DNA of 64,000 nucleotides from Spirochaetales bacterium (lineage in GTDB: Bacteria > Spirochaetota > Spirochaetia > JABEVK01). The notes beneath the pieces are model-generated. The model saw nothing but the letters and a program-made list of their open reading frames with translations, had not been told where the DNA came from and made no database searches. The stretch lies in NCBI GenBank assembly GCA_947478845.1, contig CANJXC010000005.1, positions 1-64,000 of the forward strand, read 5' to 3'. Positions 35,657 to 46,111 of this stretch are shown here, piece by piece; the first letter of the stretch is position 1; every line of letters starts with the position of its first letter. Made by a program: the position numbers and the translations under genes.

Positions 35657-36328
35657 ATGCGTAAATTTGTTGCGGTGTTGTTGGTCCTTTTGTTTGTCGT
35701 GGCTCCTTCCGGCTGGTCGAAGAGCTATAGCAGTGGCAGATCCTTCGGCTCCTCGAGCTTCAAGAGCATTCAGTCGCTTAAAACTACCCCCTCGCCCTCT
35801 GCGGGGTCCACATCCCTGCCCCAAAACCGCTCCTCAACGGTGTTGGTACCAGGCTATTCCGCTCCCATGTTCTTCTGGTTCCCTGTTGGCGGTTTTGGAT
35901 CGTCGCCCATGTCCGCCGGAGGTGGGGGTTGGCTGCTGGTGCTCATTCTGGGGGGAGTCGTCCTGTTCTTCTTGTTCCGTCCTCGGCGCACGGTGATGGC
36001 CGAAGGCGATGACGGAGAGGAATTGGAACTGTTTTACCAGCGTTGTCAAAAGAACCTCAACCATCTTACTAATGTTTATGTGGACGCTCAGACGTGGCTT
36101 GAACGACTGGAAGGAAAAATCCCGGACTCGCAATATAAGGATTGGAACGACCGTTACACCCGCATCAGCGTCGAAGATTTTACCAAACAGCTGGAGGAAA
36201 TCCGCCTGCATCTGAATCGCGGTGAGCAGGTTGCCGCGAGAGCCAAACTGTTCTCCTTTGATGAGGACGCTGTTGCCGTGTTCGATTTTCTGCAGGAATT
36301 GGAAAACAGCGTAGAAGATCTCAAATAA
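35657..36328 (+). CDS. Secreted or membrane protein of unknown function
   Basis: The 223-residue product has a signal peptide (residues 1-21), a Ser/Gly-rich segment with S-S-G-R-S-F-G-S-S-S like those in some Tim44-like and DUF1517 proteins, and a membrane segment at about residues 94-114. A charged cytoplasmic domain follows with mostly helical character. I do not recognise the family. A TACATT element (35645-35650) ends six bases before the ATG. The 3' end overlaps the convergent methylase gene by 8 bp. Confidence 0.75.
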   Translation: MRKFVAVLLVLLFVVAPSGWSKSYSSGRSFGSSSFKSIQSLKTTPSPSAGSTSLPQNRSSTVLVPGYSAPMFFWFPVGGFGSSPMSAGGGGWLLVLILGGVVLFFLFRPRRTVMAEGDDGEELELFYQRCQKNLNHLTNVYVDAQTWLERLEGKIPDSQYKDWNDRYTRISVEDFTKQLEEIRLHLNRGEQVAARAKLFSFDEDAVAVFDFLQELENSVEDLK

Positions 36329-37937
36329 ACTGAAGTTCGCTCTCTAAAGGCGCCGATCTTCGGGAGTAAAGGACCCGCAAGGACTGCAATCCGTTGTGTA
36401 ACCGCGGGCTTGGCTGCCTTGCCAAGTGCTGTTCCAGTTGCAACAACGCGTTTTCCAATTGGGTCCGATATTTGGCGAAAGCTAAGCGGCGGAGTACCTG
36501 CAAGAGCCTGACTTCAAGAGCCCGTCTCTTGGGAGCACTTGTTTCCTGGTCCAGCAGCGAATACAAAACTTCGGCTTCTTCGTTGGGTGCGTTGAACTGC
36601 GAAGCCGTGAGGCCTACTTCAAGCGCTTTCAAGTCCACATCCAACCAAGAGGCCCAGTTGGGCACCTCAGAAATCTGGTAGAGTTTCCAGGTAGGCAAAA
36701 CACGGCCGGCCACTTGGAGGTCTGTCCCTCCCCCGTCAAAAGCTGAGCGAAGGCGCTGTGGATGAAACCGTCCCTTGAGCAACGGCACCAAGCGCTTCTC
36801 GGCCAGAAAGCGCTCGACTCGGGCCCGGCTCAAGCCACTTTCTCGCGCTCCGGTATCCACCACCAGAGCAAACTCAAGGTTGTGTGCACGTCGCGAAGGG
36901 CTTTGGCGCCCACCTCGGTACACCACGTAGTCCTGAACTTCCAGCGTGACGCGGCCGCGCGTGGCCAGCAATTCGTGGAGTTCTTCGAAGTCGATCACTC
37001 CCTCGGTGTTGTAGCTGACGACCAGAGTGCGCGCATCGACCGCATCGAGAAGCGAGCAGAGCGTGGCGCTAGAGGTTTTGCGCGAACAAAACGGGCTTCG
37101 GGTTTCTTTCCAATCGGGCCGAATGCCAGCCACCCGTTCGGCTATGGGTCGATCTCCCCGGGCTACGGTGTTCAACAGGTGATAGTTCGATCCGTACTGG
37201 TGCTGGTTATAGGGAGGGTCGAGGTAGCAAACTTCGGCGCTGCGACGACGTACAAACTCCAAGGCATCCTGGCAGAACGCAAACGCCGGGAACGGTGAAT
37301 CCCACAATTCAGGAACTTCCAGCTGCATCGGGGAAAGGATGCGCGTAAGGGCGTCGCCACTGTGGCCCCCATAACCGGCATGAAAGCCCTTGAAGACGCC
37401 GCTGGTATTGGAATGCACGGAGGCTTCGTAAAGGAGCAAAGCCAGAAGGAGGACCTTCGGGTCTCCCATTTCGGGCCCGTAATCGTCTTCCAACCGTTCC
37501 CGCACTGCGTCGAGGAACAAGGCGTTTTCACGGGTATAAAACAGCCTCTCCCCAGGCCTTGGATTCTGCGTCTCCCGTGGTGCGTAATGCAACGCGACGA
37601 CTTCCTCTCTTGGCTCTTTAAGAGCATTGAGCTCGCTAAGGACCTTTTCCAGACCGCCCCTTGAAGTGAACAAGTCCTGTGCCTCCCGGGGCGTCAGGGT
37701 GAGAAAGGCACGATTGATCACCCACGAATAGGTTTCCCAGTCGTTGGCGTGGACCTCAAACCCCAGGGTGCGTGCCAACCGGGCTACAGCGCCACTGCCT
37801 GCGAACGGATCGAGGAAGACGCCCCGGCGTCCAGCGTTCATGCTGGCCCGCTGCTCGAACAGCCGGCCTAAAAACGGGAGCAGGAGGCGCTTGTTTCCAA
37901 GGTAGGCAATCAATTGTTGTTTGAGGTAAGCAGCCAC
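36321..37937 (-). CDS. D12-class DNA adenine methyltransferase
   Basis: This 538-residue protein starts A-A-Y-L-K-Q-Q-L-I-A-Y-L-G-N-K-R, the adenine-methylase opening. It has F-L-D-P-F-A-G-S-G near residue 43 (SAM-binding motif I) and D-P-P-Y-N-Q-H-Q-Y-G near residue 240 (catalytic motif IV, DPPY). The C-terminal 170 residues are extra compared with Dam and could carry target recognition or another role. No restriction endonuclease gene is adjacent, so it may be an orphan methylase. Start is GTG at 37937; a TACACT element ends five bases upstream. Convergent with the preceding membrane-protein gene. Confidence 0.88.
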   Translation of the reverse strand: MAAYLKQQLIAYLGNKRLLLPFLGRLFEQRASMNAGRRGVFLDPFAGSGAVARLARTLGFEVHANDWETYSWVINRAFLTLTPREAQDLFTSRGGLEKVLSELNALKEPREEVVALHYAPRETQNPRPGERLFYTRENALFLDAVRERLEDDYGPEMGDPKVLLLALLLYEASVHSNTSGVFKGFHAGYGGHSGDALTRILSPMQLEVPELWDSPFPAFAFCQDALEFVRRRSAEVCYLDPPYNQHQYGSNYHLLNTVARGDRPIAERVAGIRPDWKETRSPFCSRKTSSATLCSLLDAVDARTLVVSYNTEGVIDFEELHELLATRGRVTLEVQDYVVYRGGRQSPSRRAHNLEFALVVDTGARESGLSRARVERFLAEKRLVPLLKGRFHPQRLRSAFDGGGTDLQVAGRVLPTWKLYQISEVPNWASWLDVDLKALEVGLTASQFNAPNEEAEVLYSLLDQETSAPKRRALEVRLLQVLRRLAFAKYRTQLENALLQLEQHLARQPSPRLHNGLQSLRVLYSRRSAPLESELQFI

Positions 37938-38000: not shown

Positions 38001-39515
38001 ATGACCCTTTCCAGCCTGCTGGCTCTGGTTCCCGAGGTGGAAGTCCACTCCCCGGATGACAACTGGAAGAATTTTGAAATCAGCAGTCTCGTGTACGATA
38101 GCCGCGAAGCGGGACCAGAAACCCTGTTTTTTGCTTTACCGGGGACCCACACTGACGGGCACAACTACCTTGCAGAGGTGGCCGCCCGAGGGTGCCGCGC
38201 CTTTGTGGTCAGCGCTCTCCCGTCGGTGCTTCTTCCCGCGACTGTCGTCTTGAAGGTGGCTAATACCCGGAAAGCCTTGAGTCCTTTTGCAGCAGCGTTT
38301 TTCGGAAATCCGTCCCATGAACTTTCAGTCATCGGCGTCACGGGAACCGACGGCAAAAGCACCACGGTGAGCTTCATTCACCAACTTCTGGAGCTCTCCG
38401 GGCATCGAGCCGGTTTCTTTTCCACGGTGGAATGGAAAACGGGTTCAGACATAGAGGTCAACAAGTTTCGTCAATCAACCCCCGAGGCGCCGCTGGTCCA
38501 CCAATCCCTGCGTAGCATGCTCAACAACGGGTTTCGCTATGCGGTACTGGAGAGCACCTCCCACGGCCTATCGCCTCTGACCAGCCGGTTAGCCGATGTC
38601 CGCTACGCGGCTGCAGTTTTCACCAACGTGACACTGGAGCACCTCGAGTTCCATGGCAACGTCGAAACCTACCGGCGCGACAAAGCTCGACTATTCGAGG
38701 CTCTTACCGTCGGGCCCACGGGTGCCTTCGGGGTGGTCAACGGCGACGATCCGCATGCCCAGTTGTTTGTTGAGGCTGCCGGAGACCGTGCCGTATTCCG
38801 CTACTCCACCCAGGATCCAAAGGCTCACCTCTATGCCCAAAAATTGGAGCCTTCTGCCGATGCACTGGAGATGGACTTGGTTTGGAAGGGGCAAGTCGGC
38901 CACTGTCGGCTGGAGGTTCCGGGCAAGGTCAACGCAGAAAACCTGATGGCCGCGCTGCTTACCGTGGCCGGACTGTTGTCGGTGCAGGGGCCACTGGTTA
39001 CCCCTCTGGATCTTTTGCCCTTGGTGCCGTTCATCAAGTCGCTCAAGGGACGTATGACCCCTGTTCGGGCTGGGCAGCCTTTTTCTGTGATTGTAGACTA
39101 TGCCCATACACCCGGCGCCTTCGAAAAGAAACTCCCCGAAGTGAAGGCCGTTACACCAGGACGGCTCATCGTCGTCTTTGGCTCGGGAGGCGAACGGGAC
39201 CGAGCCAAGCGGCCGCTGCAGGGTGAGTTGGCCGACCACTGGGCCGATCTGATCGTCCTCGCCGATGAAGACCCTCGTTTGGAAGACTCTATGGCCATAC
39301 TCGACGACATTGCGCAAGGGATACACCGGAAGATACTTGGCGAGAGCTATTGGAAGATACCTTCCAGGCGGGACGCCATGCGACATGCGTTTTCGCTCGC
39401 CCGCGCCGGTGACACCGTACTTCTCTTGGGCAAAGGTCATGAGCAGTCTCTGGTCACCGCGCAGGGTAGCCAGCCTTGGGACGAGGCAACTGTCGCCTTC
39501 GAGCTTTTGTCATGA
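38001..39515 (+). CDS. murE: UDP-MurNAc-tripeptide synthetase (MurE-type ligase)
   Basis: This 504-residue Mur ligase has G-V-T-G-T-D-G-K-S-T near residue 113 and the S-T-S-H-G-L motif near residue 190. The amino-acid specificity motif reads D-E-D-P-R near residue 421, rather than the D-N-P-R of diaminopimelate-adding enzymes. The added residue may therefore be lysine or ornithine. It works in the cytoplasm in peptidoglycan assembly. The stop overlaps the next gene (ATGA). Confidence 0.9.
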   Translation: MTLSSLLALVPEVEVHSPDDNWKNFEISSLVYDSREAGPETLFFALPGTHTDGHNYLAEVAARGCRAFVVSALPSVLLPATVVLKVANTRKALSPFAAAFFGNPSHELSVIGVTGTDGKSTTVSFIHQLLELSGHRAGFFSTVEWKTGSDIEVNKFRQSTPEAPLVHQSLRSMLNNGFRYAVLESTSHGLSPLTSRLADVRYAAAVFTNVTLEHLEFHGNVETYRRDKARLFEALTVGPTGAFGVVNGDDPHAQLFVEAAGDRAVFRYSTQDPKAHLYAQKLEPSADALEMDLVWKGQVGHCRLEVPGKVNAENLMAALLTVAGLLSVQGPLVTPLDLLPLVPFIKSLKGRMTPVRAGQPFSVIVDYAHTPGAFEKKLPEVKAVTPGRLIVVFGSGGERDRAKRPLQGELADHWADLIVLADEDPRLEDSMAILDDIAQGIHRKILGESYWKIPSRRDAMRHAFSLARAGDTVLLLGKGHEQSLVTAQGSQPWDEATVAFELLS

Positions 39516-40945
39516 AACTGGCCTCCCTCGTTCTGCTCCTGGCTACGTTCGCGGGTGCGCAGGAGACTCTAGTCCCGGGGTTCCCGATGGTGCCACCTCT
39601 GCGAGAAAGGGTCATGAGCCTTGATGATCAGTCTGGTTGGACCCTGCGCAAGGGCGACCAGAACGCGGTTCTGGCGGTGGTTCCTACCGACGACAAGATT
39701 GCCGTGGGACTCGCCGGGGGGTGGTTGCTCATGGGCGCCGACCTCGAGTACCAGAGCTCTAGTTTCGACTTGTTGGGGACCCCCAACCTTGCAGGTTCGC
39801 CGTATGCCCAAGCAGTGGGTCCCTTGGTTGTTTTCGCCACCTCGAGTCCTGGTGACCTCGTGGTGCTTTACCCCGACACGGCCGTTACGTTCCGGCAACC
39901 CCTGCCCTTGGACGGCCTGCGCCAACTACTTGTCACCGACAAGGGTTTCCTGTTTGCGCAGAGCCGCCGCGTCTCCGGAAAGACCCACTGGAACAAAACC
40001 CTGCGGGAGGAACAACCACTTCCTTTTTTTCCGGCGGATCTCACTGCCGGTCCGGATGGAACCCCTTGGGCCGTCGACAGCTTGCAAGCCCGACCTTGGC
40101 ACCTCGACGAGGGCTATTGGCGCCCGCTGGAAATACCAACTGCAGCGGGCCGCCTGGCAAGCCTTGCACCCTTTGCCGATTCCACAGGCTACCTTGCCAG
40201 CGGTGCTGGCTGGGCGGGAGCCTTCCGCACCAATGGTACCACTCTCTGGCTACGTGACAAGGATTTCTCGGGAAGGCCTCTTCCCCGCGACCTTAAGGTA
40301 CGCTCGGGCCATGGCAAGATCTTACTGTGGTCGTCTATGGAACGCCGTGTTTGGTTGTGGAGTTGGAAGGCTGGGGGACTTTCCGGAGCCGTACTACCAC
40401 CGACCGCAGATCGCCTCGCCGACGACGTGCGGGGTGAGGTCAAACGGTTGGAAGCCTTGGGCAGCGTTCCCGAAGCCCTGAACCTGAGCCAATACGCCAT
40501 CGAACTTTCCACAGCAATGCTCAAGGTCCAACCTTTTTCCGACCTTTGGAGAAAGGCGAAAGAAGAGTTCTCAGCCCGCCGTCAGGAACTCAAGGAGGAA
40601 TCGGTGGGCACTGGTGTTTTTACGATGACGTGGGAGTCGCCCTTCGGTCTGCCGTTAGGCAACTGGAATTGGGAACCCGACGCTCAGTGGGTTGGCGTGA
40701 AGAACTGGCGGGCCGAAGTGATTCCCTACCGCGAAGGTAGGTCTTGGGATACTGAGGACTTCCGCCTGGCGATGACGGCAACCCGTACGCCGTTTCCTGG
40801 CGCAACAACCTATACAGGAAGCGGCTTGCAGTGGCCTTCCTGGCTGAGCGTCCGATTGCGACCGGACGGTAGCGACCAAGCCCTTCACTGGATCCGCCTC
40901 CCTTACCCCGAACCGCCTCAGCGTTACGATTTGCCTGTGGAATAG
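39512..40945 (+). CDS. Secreted protein of unknown function coupled to murE
   Basis: The 477-residue product has a signal peptide (M-K-L-A-S-L-V-L-L-L-A-T-F-A-G-A-Q). Repeated strands with W, G and D suggest an all-beta, perhaps propeller-like, body (residues 20-310). A helical linker and a second beta-rich domain rich in tryptophan (residues 375-477) follow. I do not recognise the family. Its ATG at 39512 overlaps the murE stop, so the two are probably translated together. The short gap 40946-41027 before the convergent sppA holds nothing recognisable. Confidence 0.75.
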   Translation: MKLASLVLLLATFAGAQETLVPGFPMVPPLRERVMSLDDQSGWTLRKGDQNAVLAVVPTDDKIAVGLAGGWLLMGADLEYQSSSFDLLGTPNLAGSPYAQAVGPLVVFATSSPGDLVVLYPDTAVTFRQPLPLDGLRQLLVTDKGFLFAQSRRVSGKTHWNKTLREEQPLPFFPADLTAGPDGTPWAVDSLQARPWHLDEGYWRPLEIPTAAGRLASLAPFADSTGYLASGAGWAGAFRTNGTTLWLRDKDFSGRPLPRDLKVRSGHGKILLWSSMERRVWLWSWKAGGLSGAVLPPTADRLADDVRGEVKRLEALGSVPEALNLSQYAIELSTAMLKVQPFSDLWRKAKEEFSARRQELKEESVGTGVFTMTWESPFGLPLGNWNWEPDAQWVGVKNWRAEVIPYREGRSWDTEDFRLAMTATRTPFPGATTYTGSGLQWPSWLSVRLRPDGSDQALHWIRLPYPEPPQRYDLPVE

Positions 40946-41027: not shown

Positions 41028-43436
41028 TTACTGAAAGTTCAGTGGAGGTGCCCAAACCAGAACTGCTGGTTTTCCTGCCGTTACGCCCATTTCGGTCAAA
41101 CGCGACAACTCCTCTAGCACCGGGCCAGCCAACTGGGAAATCTGCCTAACCACACCGGAAACCGGAACCAGTTGCTCCAAACCGGCCATGACGTTAACGA
41201 TACCTGGGTACACGGACCGGAACGCAAGGGGAGTGCCCAATCGTTGTTCCAGCCAAGACTTTGCGGCTTCGAGGCCGCCTAGGTCATCGACAAGCCCACG
41301 GTCCAAGGCTTCACGACCGGTCCAGACCTGCCCTTCCCCCACAAGCTTTACCTGCTGGAGGCTCATTTGGCGCCCTGTGGCCACCACACCCAAAAAGCGC
41401 TCATAGATGGCGGAGATCTCCTCGTTCAGGGCTTTAAGGTCATCGGGACGCAGTTCACGTAATGGATCTGCGAAACCCGCCTGAGGCGAGAGTGCAGCCG
41501 AATCGGGGTGGATGCCCAGCTTGTTCAGAGCAGAGGATATCGAGGGAGCCAAGGCGGTAACGCCGATAGAGCCGGTTATGGTGCCCGGGCGGGCAAAGAT
41601 GCGGGAGGCATAGGCAGAAACATAGTATCCGCCGCTGGCCCCGGTGTTTTCCATCACAGCCACGACGGGCTTCCCGGCGGCGACCGTAAGTCGCACCTGC
41701 TCGGCTATCTCATCGCTGGTAATCACGACGCCACCGGGGGAATCCACCTTCAGAAGCAAGGCGCTCACAGTGACGTCGCCGCGAAGTTTGGCTAACTGAG
41801 CGGCGGTATCGCTCCCTATACTGACCCCTGGTACTCCCGGCCCGGTAATGATATCACCCTGGAGGGTAACCACGGCCACAGTCTTGGCCAGCGGCGACGG
41901 TCCCCAGGGAACATCTACGGACCAGCGGAGGTCGTCGATAAAGGAAGCTGCCGGGTGGGCTTTTTGAAGCGCCTGTTCGAACTCACTCCGGTATTCCACC
42001 GCATCGATCAGACCCATGCCTTTGGCGCGGGAGGCCAAAAGGTAGGGCCCGCCATTGACGGCCCCGGTGGCTGAGGTGCGCAACTTTGACCCCCGGGAAA
42101 GAGACAACTCCCGGGTCAATTGGTCCTGAAGGTCGCCCAACAAGCGGAGGTTCATCGCCCGCTCGCCAGGGGGCATCGACGAAAAACTCAAGTCATTGCT
42201 GTAGCTCTTGGTGTCCCACGGCGCGAGGTTGGTGAACTGTATTCCCAGTTTGTCGAGCAAATCTTTGTAGTACAACCGCTCCGTCTCGAGGGGGTGGACT
42301 TCGAGCGCCCCGTTGGGATTCAGCGAAATCCGATCAGCATGCGACCAAACGGCCTGAAAGGCAGCATTCGCCCCGTAACCGTCGGCATAGACATACACTT
42401 TTTTTCCGGCTTTCTGCAGGGCGTCGAGCCCTGCTGATACAGCCTGCGCATCAGCAAGGCCGTTGAGGGAAGGTGGGTTCTCCAGAGCTAACGCTACAAC
42501 AGAAGGGTCGCGGGAAGCGTGGTCCAGAACTTCCAGCAGGTCGGAGACGGTTGGCCGGGAAAAGCCGCCCAGCAGGGAAGCCCAGAAGCCGGGCAACGAA
42601 GGGGCGCTCGCAAGAGACGGAACATCCCTCAGCCGAAGAATATGGGGTACCCAGGGCCAGTCGGCCGTCAGGTTCTGGCGTCCACTAAAAAGGGCGGCTC
42701 CGGCACGAAACTCAAGCGGTGCGGATGCAGCAGGTAGGGAAGCCCACGATTGGGTGGGGCCTAGATTCAGGGTAAGTTCAAGGCCCGGGGTTTTCTTTTC
42801 CCAGTCGTACCAGCCACGTATATCCAACCATGGAAGTGCTAACCGCACACCCAGACTTTCCGGGACGATGGCGAAAGATGAATTGGTGCGAGCATCGCCG
42901 GTGAGGGTCAGCAGCGAGCTTAACCCTTCTCCAGCCCGAGCGGGGATTAGGGCCAAAGGACGCAGCGCCAGTCCTAAACCAAGGGTGGGCGCAGTTCCAA
43001 AGGTATCATTGGCTGTAATTCCCAACGAAAACAGGTCCACCGGCCGCCACAGAACGCCAAAGTCGGTGGTCATCGAGAGAAGTGTAGTTGCACTGTAGCG
43101 ACTAGTTTTGTAACCGACCGCCAGCGGCGCGCCAAAACTGAGGGAGGTTCCCACGTCCATACGCGTGCTCCCGGCGAAACGAGCCAGGCGAAAATTGACC
43201 AGCGGACTGAACAATAACACGTCCTGTGCTCCCGCGGGGTCGGTAGCGTCAGGAGCCCAACTGTAACCGGCTGCCCAGGGCGACTCCACTCCCCAGGAAG
43301 CGGGGTTGTCTCCGAGATGCCACAGGCTGCCATCGTCAGCACGGAACTTTGGGTCTAAAGAAGGATCGGTGGCCGACAATTCAACGCTGATTGCTACCAA
43401 AATGGCCACCGCCGCCCACAGCGAGGATATCCTCAA
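41028..43436 (-). CDS. sppA: Signal peptide peptidase SppA with an extra N-terminal beta-barrel-like domain
   Basis: This 802-residue protein has a signal peptide (residues 1-22). Residues about 30-235 are rich in alternating beta strands and glycine with aromatic ends, resembling an outer-membrane barrel. A two-domain (67K type) SppA follows. The general-base lysine aligns at K410 (W-D-T-K-S-Y) and the nucleophile at S601 (G-A-S-G-G-Y). Classical long SppA has about 620 residues with an N-terminal membrane anchor, so the extra domain replaces that anchor. SppA cleaves leftover signal peptides. Its ATG overlaps the ddl stop (ATGA). Confidence 0.88.
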   Translation of the reverse strand: MRISSLWAAVAILVAISVELSATDPSLDPKFRADDGSLWHLGDNPASWGVESPWAAGYSWAPDATDPAGAQDVLLFSPLVNFRLARFAGSTRMDVGTSLSFGAPLAVGYKTSRYSATTLLSMTTDFGVLWRPVDLFSLGITANDTFGTAPTLGLGLALRPLALIPARAGEGLSSLLTLTGDARTNSSFAIVPESLGVRLALPWLDIRGWYDWEKKTPGLELTLNLGPTQSWASLPAASAPLEFRAGAALFSGRQNLTADWPWVPHILRLRDVPSLASAPSLPGFWASLLGGFSRPTVSDLLEVLDHASRDPSVVALALENPPSLNGLADAQAVSAGLDALQKAGKKVYVYADGYGANAAFQAVWSHADRISLNPNGALEVHPLETERLYYKDLLDKLGIQFTNLAPWDTKSYSNDLSFSSMPPGERAMNLRLLGDLQDQLTRELSLSRGSKLRTSATGAVNGGPYLLASRAKGMGLIDAVEYRSEFEQALQKAHPAASFIDDLRWSVDVPWGPSPLAKTVAVVTLQGDIITGPGVPGVSIGSDTAAQLAKLRGDVTVSALLLKVDSPGGVVITSDEIAEQVRLTVAAGKPVVAVMENTGASGGYYVSAYASRIFARPGTITGSIGVTALAPSISSALNKLGIHPDSAALSPQAGFADPLRELRPDDLKALNEEISAIYERFLGVVATGRQMSLQQVKLVGEGQVWTGREALDRGLVDDLGGLEAAKSWLEQRLGTPLAFRSVYPGIVNVMAGLEQLVPVSGVVRQISQLAGPVLEELSRLTEMGVTAGKPAVLVWAPPLNFQ

Positions 43437-44482
43437 CGGGGCTTCCTCAAGGCTTCGTCGATCAGCCGGTCGAGAAGAGTGGGGTAGGTCATTCCCGAGT
43501 GAAGTACCATGCGGGGGAACATTGAAATCGTGGTAAATCCGGGTAAAGTGTTGATTTCATTGAGGGAAATCGCTCCGGTTGAGCGGTCGATGAAAAAGTC
43601 AACCCGGGAAAAGCCCAAGCAGTCGAGGGCTCTGTAGGCGTTGACGGCTAGCTCGAGGATGCGGCTGGAAACTTCGGGCGCCAACTGCGCCGGAACCTCC
43701 AAAGCGGCACCATGAGGGTCGAGGTATTTGGCTTCGTAGTCATAGAACTCGTGGTTTGGCACCACCTCCCCGGGACCAAAAGCCTCTGGCTGAGACACGC
43801 CCAAGACGGCCACTTCGATTTCACGGCCGTTGACGGCCTTTTCGACCATGACCTTGGAATCCACGGCGAAGGCGGCGTCCATTGCCGGACCAAACTCGGC
43901 CCCATTTGTTACTTTTGCCACCCCCACCGAGGAACCCGAATTGGCTGGTTTGACAAAAAGGGGCAAGCCCAAGGTCGTGGAGCACCTTGCAAACAGTGCG
44001 GAGCAAGCCTCCGGGGAAGAATCCCTATCGCGGTGTGCCGTCAGCCAAGGCACCACAGGGAACCCTTGTTGCTGCCAAATCTGTTTGGCGAAGTCCTTAT
44101 CCATGCCCAAAGCACTGCCGGCCACACCCGAGCCGGTGTAGCGAACGGCCGCGCAGTCGAGGAGGCCTTGGAGCCGTCCGTCTTCCCCTTGCGTACCGTG
44201 GGTGACCAGAAAAGCAACATCGACAAGGAGAGTTTCACCCGCGACGGCAAGCCCTACACCCGGGATCACACTAACCAACTGGCTCCCGTCGGCCTTGACA
44301 GCAGGCAGGGGAAGCAGCTCCTGCAGCTGCCGGTACCAACGGCCGTTGCGGTCGATACCGATAACCGTCACCTCGTATCGGGAACGATCTAGGTGGTTCA
44401 GCACCGAGGCAGCTGACAGGCACGAGACCTCGTGCTCGGCAGACACACCGCCAAACAATAACGCGACCTGAACTTTGCTCAT
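43433..44482 (-). CDS. ddl: D-alanine--D-alanine ligase
   Basis: This 349-residue ATP-grasp ligase opens M-S-K-V-Q-V-A-L-L-F-G-G-V-S-A-E-H-E-V-S, the standard Ddl start. It has the T-H-G-T-Q-G-E-D-G segment near residue 95, V-K-P-A-N-S-G-S-S-V-G near residue 180 and N-E-I-N-T-L-P-G-F-T near residue 310. It makes the D-Ala-D-Ala end of the peptidoglycan stem. The start at 44482 is set by homology; a longer frame from 44746 would cross the divergent promoter. First gene of a ddl-sppA pair. Confidence 0.95.
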   Translation of the reverse strand: MSKVQVALLFGGVSAEHEVSCLSAASVLNHLDRSRYEVTVIGIDRNGRWYRQLQELLPLPAVKADGSQLVSVIPGVGLAVAGETLLVDVAFLVTHGTQGEDGRLQGLLDCAAVRYTGSGVAGSALGMDKDFAKQIWQQQGFPVVPWLTAHRDRDSSPEACSALFARCSTTLGLPLFVKPANSGSSVGVAKVTNGAEFGPAMDAAFAVDSKVMVEKAVNGREIEVAVLGVSQPEAFGPGEVVPNHEFYDYEAKYLDPHGAALEVPAQLAPEVSSRILELAVNAYRALDCLGFSRVDFFIDRSTGAISLNEINTLPGFTTISMFPRMVLHSGMTYPTLLDRLIDEALRKPR

Positions 44483-44554: not shown

Positions 44555-46111
44555 ATGACGGCATTTTTCGAGGCAATCACGGAGTTCTTGATAGGAATTC
44601 TCTCCGGGGACCCTGAGGCGGTTCGTTTGCGCAGCCAGCTTAAGGAGCTGGCAAAAACCGTGGGGGAGTCTAAGCCGACTGTGTACCAAAAGTCGCCGGA
44701 AACACTGTTGCCTGCCTTCGCCGCGAGCTGGTTCCAGCTTTACCAACTGCTGGTGCCGTTGTCGGAGATGTTTTCCAAAACGATTGCAAGCCCCGACCGC
44801 CTAACGGCCGAGGCTGCCCTTCACGCTTTGATCGAGTCAAACTTGGAAGACAATGTAGCCCAAAGGCGATCTAGCTTGAGTTTTTCCTCGCTGACGGAGC
44901 GTTACGCGTCAGCTCGCAGCGTGGAGCAGGAAGCCCAACTTGTCGCCCACGAGTTTGCCAGCCTGATCACCGACGTGCAAAAACAAGACACTGAACGTTG
45001 GCAGCAGGACTTTGCCTCACTTTTCCGCCTGCGTTACCTGGCCTTGCATACTTGGGCGGCGTTATTTAGTCACTTTGGACACAATATTTCTTCCGGAGCC
45101 CGTGAAGTGTCTTTTCATGCTGTGGAGGCAAAACACGTAATTCCCGAGCTGATCGACCTGTACTTTCTCGTCGCGGAGTTTAACCTCCTCCCCGGGGTGG
45201 AACCCCTGTTGGGAGGACTGCTTGAAAAACTCAACCCCGCCCGAGCCACTGACAACAAGGAGAAGCTGAGTAAGATTCTCGCCCGCCTCAGCGAGTTACT
45301 TCGCGGTCCCTGTTCGGCTGCACTTCTCCTGAATCTGATACGGCTTATCCGAAAGGACCCCACCAACCAACTCGAAAATCTGGTGATCAAGGAACGCTTT
45401 ATCGCCGATTACCTCGCTACACTGAACGAACGTTGTGGCAACGATCAGGAGCGAGCGTTCCGGGAACGCAACGAATCGAGCAGAGAAAGAGATATACAGT
45501 TACTTTTTGAGGGCCGCGATTTGGAGCATTTGAGCCACTACAGTTCGTACACCAACGAAAGGTTGTCTGCGGTGGGCCTGAGCTCACTCACTTGGGTGAA
45601 GCCCTTGGAAGTGTTGCTGACCTTTGCCAAAACCGAGTTAAAGGGGAGTTATATCTCTGCCGTGAAGAAGGTTTTGATGGGCGGTATCTTCACCTCCAAG
45701 GACTGGCAAAGCCAGCTGAGCGACTCTATGTATGTGGTGGAAAAAATCACTACCAATCTGGTGGAGTTTGACACCTCGCTAACCCGGGATGGCAAAGTTT
45801 CCTTGGTCCCGCTAGAAAAATACCTGAGCGGCCAGGTACCAGCGTCCACGTTGTCTCGCCAGATGGTCGACAACATCAATCGGGCAGCTTCCAACCTCCT
45901 CGAGGCCGAGTACAATGGTTTGTTCACCCTGTCCAAGAGAATTCAAGACCTCCTAAACGACCAGAAGTCGCCTCATCCAACCTACATCACCAACATACGC
46001 TCCATCGGCGGAGCCAATCAGCGCGAGTTTATTGAATTTCTGATTCAGGGCTACAACAAAAATATCCAGTTGTTGAAAACATTGTCGTATTATGTTGTGG
46101 CGAAGGAATAA
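44555..46111 (+). CDS. Uncharacterised 518-residue protein, DUF5312-like
   Basis: The product is long, helical and cytoplasmic, with no signal peptide or membrane segment. It has many leucine-rich amphipathic helices and a conserved-looking end (S-I-G-G-A-N-Q-R-E-F-I ... L-K-T-L-S-Y-Y-V-V-A). The size and style recall the DUF5312 family, which I know from spirochaetes; that match is from memory and uncertain. Context gives no function: it diverges from ddl and converges with a carbonic anhydrase gene. Confidence 0.7.
   Translation: MTAFFEAITEFLIGILSGDPEAVRLRSQLKELAKTVGESKPTVYQKSPETLLPAFAASWFQLYQLLVPLSEMFSKTIASPDRLTAEAALHALIESNLEDNVAQRRSSLSFSSLTERYASARSVEQEAQLVAHEFASLITDVQKQDTERWQQDFASLFRLRYLALHTWAALFSHFGHNISSGAREVSFHAVEAKHVIPELIDLYFLVAEFNLLPGVEPLLGGLLEKLNPARATDNKEKLSKILARLSELLRGPCSAALLLNLIRLIRKDPTNQLENLVIKERFIADYLATLNERCGNDQERAFRERNESSRERDIQLLFEGRDLEHLSHYSSYTNERLSAVGLSSLTWVKPLEVLLTFAKTELKGSYISAVKKVLMGGIFTSKDWQSQLSDSMYVVEKITTNLVEFDTSLTRDGKVSLVPLEKYLSGQVPASTLSRQMVDNINRAASNLLEAEYNGLFTLSKRIQDLLNDQKSPHPTYITNIRSIGGANQREFIEFLIQGYNKNIQLLKTLSYYVVAKE

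Follow-up and report, generated by a model that had tools for sequence, protein, structure and literature searches.

Does the protein encoded at 41028-43436, on the minus strand, hold an SppA-type peptidase at the outer membrane? SppA is usually regarded as an enzyme of the inner membrane whose task is to remove spent signal peptides, and a sequence-only reading of the window (the whole 64,000-nucleotide stretch of Spirochaetales DNA that was analysed) had claimed that a complete SppA is here fused to an N-terminal domain resembling an outer-membrane barrel. The gene is a single open reading frame encoding 802 aa, as given by the ORF list and its translation, and the coordinates and strand assigned to it by that reading are right. 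In all, 842 codons are open in the frame, and no internal stop or frame problem was seen. The TTG at 43434-43436 is the sole ATG, GTG or TTG codon of the frame ahead of the domains, and a GAGGA is found 7 nt upstream of it. The start codon overlaps the stop codon of the upstream ddl (D-Ala-D-Ala ligase) gene in the 4-nt sequence TTGA, an overlap which suggests that the two genes may be translationally coupled. The features of the fusion are given below in the order of translation.

43433-43448, minus strand: ribosome-binding site and start region of the sppA fusion (GAGGA at 43444-43448, TTG at 43434-43436, TTGA overlap)
43371-43436, minus strand: predicted signal peptide, residues 1 to about 22, core AAVAILVAISV followed by LSA, without a lipobox Cys
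42687-43370, minus strand: N-terminal FadL/PorV-like, predicted barrel domain, residues about 23-250 (~230 aa), with a FadL profile match and weak PorV matches
43299-43307, minus strand: NPA motif (residues 44, 45 and 46), aligning with the hatch NPA of FadL and taken as its equivalent
41907-42659, minus strand: first S49 (SppA N-terminal) domain, residues about 260-510, Pfam S49 at 41961-42419, 3bez alignment from residue 297
42207-42209, minus strand: predicted catalytic Lys, K410, aligning with the Lys region of E. coli SppA, Lys in 30 of 30 long homologues
41232-41894, minus strand: second S49 (SppA C-terminal) domain, residues about 515-735, Pfam S49 at 41241-41681 (E 1.8e-39), Foldseek matches 3bez and 3rst
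41634-41636, minus strand: predicted catalytic Ser, S601, within GASGGYY, aligning with the Ser region of E. coli SppA, Ser in 30 of 30 long homologues

The host genome (2.99 Mb, 99.75% complete) encodes FlaA, a family that is absent from all 14 control genomes, which makes a spirochaete the most likely host. The fusion is the only S49 protein of this genome. Three further genes of the neighbourhood may be mentioned. A 489-aa protein without a Pfam family is encoded at 39476-40945 (plus strand), convergent with the sppA-fusion gene, and a DUF5312 protein (E 7.7e-8) at 44555-46111 (plus strand), divergent from ddl and the fusion. At 36321-37937 (minus strand) there is a D12-class adenine DNA methyltransferase, with PF02086 at residues 12-280 and, C-terminal to it, some 250 additional residues for which no family match was found.

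The C-terminal part of the fusion is a two-domain S49 peptidase. PF01343 (peptidase family S49) matches the protein in two stretches at 180.8 bits, with a cut-off of 24.9, the alignment with E. coli SppA (3bez) covers residues 297-725 with an E-value of 2.2e-50, and the protein scores above the cut-off of the NCBIfam SppA_dom model. Both S49 domains that had been claimed on the sequence, and both of the residues, K410 and S601, were confirmed; the catalytic residues of E. coli SppA are numbered K209 and S409. The score of 242.7 bits against the SppA_67K equivalog model (NCBIfam TIGR00705) is under the cut-off of 311.45, and the protein is therefore filed as an S49/SppA-type protease and not as a classical SppA 67K equivalog. 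AlphaFold, run on the full-length fusion together with six SppA-only relatives, gave a weak model (mean pLDDT 47.5) in which the best SppA stretches reach 70-85, and a structure search of the PDB with this model returned 3bez at the top, followed by 3rst and 4kwb. Because of the S49 domains, the conserved pair of residues and the SppA fold, the protease half would be expected to be active.

The part that precedes the protease, about residues 22-255, belongs to no Pfam family, as none was found in the fusion or in sets of 10 and 41 members apart from stray single-member matches, and PF03349, the FadL/OMPP1/TodX family, matched neither the fusion protein nor any of these 10 and 41 members. An initial N-domain profile of 10 rows likewise had no match in Pfam or the PDB, one member matching YadA_anchor at E 0.019. 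Since there is no PF03349 match, the relation of the N-domain to FadL rests on profile-profile comparison. With hhalign, the 30-row N-domain alignment matches the FadL family at 84.0% (P 7.5e-6) over 172 columns that include the NPA hatch, and the 41-row alignment at 85.9-86.7%, the two versions spanning 172-174 columns. Reversing either FadL or the N-domain lowers the value to 1.3-2.8%, the SppA half reaches 0.4% against the same family, and comparison of the N-domain with 15 unrelated families from the gene neighbourhoods gives at most 0.4%. UPF0164 against the FadL family, the positive control, gives 64.7%. The FadL alignment consists of 17 sequences, that of E. coli FadL together with those of 16 out of 30 loci matching PF03349 in the class of G201, the genome with a Tistrella locus; 13 loci (fragments, weak matches and one with a stop) and L121, which failed the NP[AGS] frame test, were left out. 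The agreement at the NPA is partly built in, because NP[AGS] was a requirement in the choice of FadL frames and each N-domain was excised around its own NPA.

Against UPF0164 the match of the N-domain is weaker, at 20.5% with 30 rows and 63.4% with 41 rows, to be read beside reversed controls of 2.9-19.3%, one of which reaches 19.3%. A separate UPF0164 gene is present in the host genome, and the Treponema pallidum members of UPF0164 are treated as FadL orthologues in two papers (PMC8407342, PMC11668736). When the N-domain was compared with 33 single E. coli proteins, FadL came first (1.7%) and the top seven were all outer-membrane barrels, all values being low (at most 1.7%), as expected with single sequences. 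A PDB profile search with the 41-row N-domain gave PorV as the single match at E ≤10, a weak one (E 1.2) over the NPA region, and the NCBIfam model PorV_fam was matched by six of the 41 members, with a best E-value of 0.011. Within the family the NPA is almost invariant (N in 30, P in 30 and A in 29 of 30 homologues, the whole motif in 29), and PMC8407342 describes the hatch NPA of FadL as essential for the conformational change induced by substrate. A relationship between the N-domain and the FadL/PorV-type outer-membrane barrels is well supported at the level of sequence profiles, though not by structure, and the outer-membrane-barrel-like character claimed for this domain is supported by a FadL match far above the reversed and unrelated controls.

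The best explanation is that the protein is an SppA-type S49 Ser/Lys protease in which a cleavable signal peptide and a compact barrel of the FadL/PorV superfamily take the place of the usual inner-membrane helix, so that the enzyme is probably located at the outer membrane. The main alternative is that the N-domain, although FadL-derived or at least beta-rich, no longer spans a membrane, in which case the protein would be an exported periplasmic SppA carrying an assembly or substrate-binding module. Such a domain would fit the short length of about 230 aa, roughly half of the ~420 found in FadL, which can also be taken to suggest a barrel with fewer or shorter strands than the 14 of FadL. It would fit, too, the composition of the protein studied here, which falls slightly on the soluble side (score -0.026) of a scale derived from two training sets, one of 15 E. 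coli barrels and one of 18 soluble proteins of the periplasm, with complete leave-one-out separation; on the same scale, however, 23 of 30 N-domains are barrel-like (score >0), as are 18 of 20 UPF0164 proteins and none of 30 SppA halves. The lag-2 autocorrelation of column hydropathy is positive in the N-domain (z = 3.7, or 4.0 with 41 rows) and negative in the SppA half (z = -3.1). Soluble beta proteins, FimG and FimA among them, can alternate in this way too, and a tally of alternating segments over the N-domain alignment shows no excess above shuffles (15 against 13.4 ± 2.2). Structure prediction, which had been proposed as the check on the barrel, gave no confident fold for the N-domain, whether barrel or soluble, which counts for this alternative as well, AlphaFold reaching a pLDDT of 33 for the N-domain alone and again low confidence for it in the full-length model with the six SppA-only relatives. 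Against a domain that has left the membrane stand the profile similarity to FadL with the NPA kept, the barrel-like composition of most of the family and the fact that the seven best single-protein matches are all outer-membrane barrels, and this alternative is considered unlikely.

The membrane-spanning barrel that is preferred here also agrees with the extreme N-terminus. A hydrophobic core lies ahead of the NPA in all 30 homologues, and in 24 of them an [AVSTLI]xA site comes after it; a Cys near the core is found in 9 of the 30 and is absent from the fusion studied here. Past the NPA, none of the 30 homologues contains a second TM-like helix, defined as a 19-residue segment with a hydropathy of at least 1.9, and the signal peptide is therefore the only membrane helix, which leaves the barrel as the natural anchor. 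It could be argued that the N-terminus is instead an uncleaved signal anchor, such that the protein would be an inner-membrane SppA with the N-domain inserted, on the periplasmic side, after the anchor and ahead of the protease. Canonical SppA does have an N-terminal TM helix, according to PMC13236525, and residues 6-22 are helical, at low confidence, in the full-length AlphaFold model. The segment nevertheless looks like a signal peptide with a cleavage-type site in most homologues, the FadL-like hatch opens the mature part at once, and the N-domain is similar to FadL. In SppA 67K an N-terminal anchor in the inner membrane immediately precedes the protease, an arrangement that is not found in the fusion, as the ~230-aa N-domain lies between. 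An uncleaved anchor is thus quite unlikely.

For the barrel-anchored protease favoured above, the following route can be envisaged. Sec would export the fusion, the signal peptide would then be removed, and the BAM machinery would insert the N-domain into the outer membrane as a closed barrel. The host genome encodes Omp85/BamA and is therefore able to insert barrels. A barrel with an even number of strands that starts in the periplasm also finishes on that side, OmpA with the soluble domain behind its barrel being an example, and by this precedent the SppA half would be placed in the periplasm, tethered to the outer membrane. The two-domain SppA would then hang at the periplasmic face in an OmpA-like layout and, as SppA does elsewhere, might assemble as a multimer, here lying along the outer membrane's inner leaflet. 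That a barrel-anchored SppA faces outwards instead, through an odd strand number or export through the barrel, and cuts external peptides at the cell surface, is very improbable, for although the strand number is not fixed by the structure predictions and in type IX secretion a surface protease, PorU, cooperates with a FadL-like barrel, PorV, both ends of FadL-type barrels are periplasmic, no other export signal was seen and folding of an SppA multimer would need to take place outside the cell.

With the protease on the periplasmic side of the outer membrane, its likely substrates would be short hydrophobic or amphipathic peptides that gather there, whether signal peptides after their release, pieces of failed outer-membrane proteins or antimicrobial peptides that enter from outside, and an SppA tethered in this way would fit the disposal of such peptides at the outer membrane. 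Work on other SppA proteins offers some background to this: the Bacillus subtilis enzyme contributes to resistance against lantibiotics and cationic peptides, its mutant having no secretion defect (PMC7568657), and loss of sppA in Flavobacterium columnare leads to more vesicles and an arrest of gliding (PMC13236525). A bolder proposal, for which the odds appear slight, is that the N-domain is a working gated pore of the FadL/PorV type, its NPA hatch retained, that passes hydrophobic peptides from the outside or the outer leaflet directly to the tethered SppA multimer; this would amount to a pore and a peptidase in one polypeptide at the outer membrane, in two phyla.

The fusion is not peculiar to the host genome and is a widespread variant of SppA. 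The N-domain profile finds matches in 47 of 198 genomes of the class (E ≤0.001), in 68 of 392 genomes of the phylum (E ≤0.01) and in 39 of 47 Eiseniibacteriota genomes, and no relatives of the N-domain were found on viral contigs. Sixty Spirochaetota loci were read, 30 from each of the class and phylum searches, of which 8 genes occur in both to leave 52 distinct ones; these counts leave out fragments and short frames of the match tables (such as G051 and G526). N-domain and SppA share one open reading frame in 51 of the 52, the remaining locus running off its contig, and in all 12 Eiseniibacteriota loci read, so that the same architecture, which had been suggested as something to look for in relatives, is found in 63 of 64 distinct loci from two phyla. 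An artefact of gene prediction that joins two genes is ruled out by the single frame and by this conservation across phyla. Some of the Eiseniibacteriota frames (L195, L196, L199 and L203) are 1000-1400 codons long, and in them the N-domain begins only after several hundred codons, the excess being probably open sequence upstream in GC-rich DNA.

S49 proteins as such are present in 97 of the 198 class genomes, and PF03349 is above its cut-off in 1 of 98 class genomes. Among the 47 genomes with the N-domain, 22 show a pair of matches to the S49 domain, counted as a single fused protein, 22 have at least three and hence a further S49 protein, and 3 are fragmentary (G002, G051 and G080). A barrel-bearing long SppA and a short one of ~600 aa are seen together in many class genomes (for example G031, with loci L007 and L022, G120 and G129), a co-occurrence that suggests a division of labour between the membranes. 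Within the family, G000 and G001 have S49, the N-domain of G002 lies where a contig stops, and all four genomes of other genera (G003-G006) have no S49 match, so the gene is patchy, in line with a recent gain or with repeated loss. A quick tree built from 41 SppA halves requires three changes to account for the fused forms, and placing them in one clade gives an AU p-value of 0.075; a single origin of the fusion is not rejected by this test. The gene neighbourhoods of 20 relatives contain no conserved partner, ddl being shared by the same-genus locus only, and as the neighbours are not shared across families they provide no operon clue.

A literature search, which left subscription journals largely outside its coverage, found no paper describing a fusion of SppA with a barrel, and the arrangement has apparently not been described until now. 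If the barrel-anchored SppA is real, the outer membrane would be a further place of action for S49 peptidases, and behind the automatic name 'signal peptide peptidase SppA' there could be an enzyme with another location and possibly another task. The matter is not confined to a few genomes, as the fusion is common in Spirochaetota and Eiseniibacteriota and is the only S49 protein in 22 genomes of the class sample. Two questions become testable: what SppA does away from the Sec translocon and how peptides are disposed of at the outer membrane.

The fusion can be compared with several known systems. With SppA 67K (protease IV, family S49; E. coli, 3bez/3bf0) it shares the two S49 domains, with the Lys in the first and the Ser in the second, but it has a signal peptide and a barrel-like domain of ~230 aa instead of the inner-membrane anchor. 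With the FadL/OMPP1/TodX barrels (PF03349), grouped here with PorV and UPF0164, the N-domain has in common the NPA hatch and the profile similarity over ~170 columns, the match to UPF0164 itself being weaker; unlike FadL/OMPP1/TodX it is ~230 and not ~420 aa long, has no PF03349 match and precedes SppA in every complete locus read. The order of parts is that of OmpA, in which a signal peptide, a barrel and a soluble periplasmic domain that binds peptidoglycan follow one another, whereas the soluble part of the fusion is a protease, and OmpA itself scores at background level (0.4%) against the N-domain profile. OmpT (omptin) is likewise a protease of the outer membrane, one in which the barrel does the catalysis and points outwards, while the fusion keeps its anchor and its S49 enzyme as separate domains. 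Finally, the PorU-PorV pair of type IX secretion also couples a protease with a FadL-type barrel, but PorU is a cysteine-type sortase on the surface and the two are separate proteins, whereas here the SppA and its barrel-like partner form a single chain.
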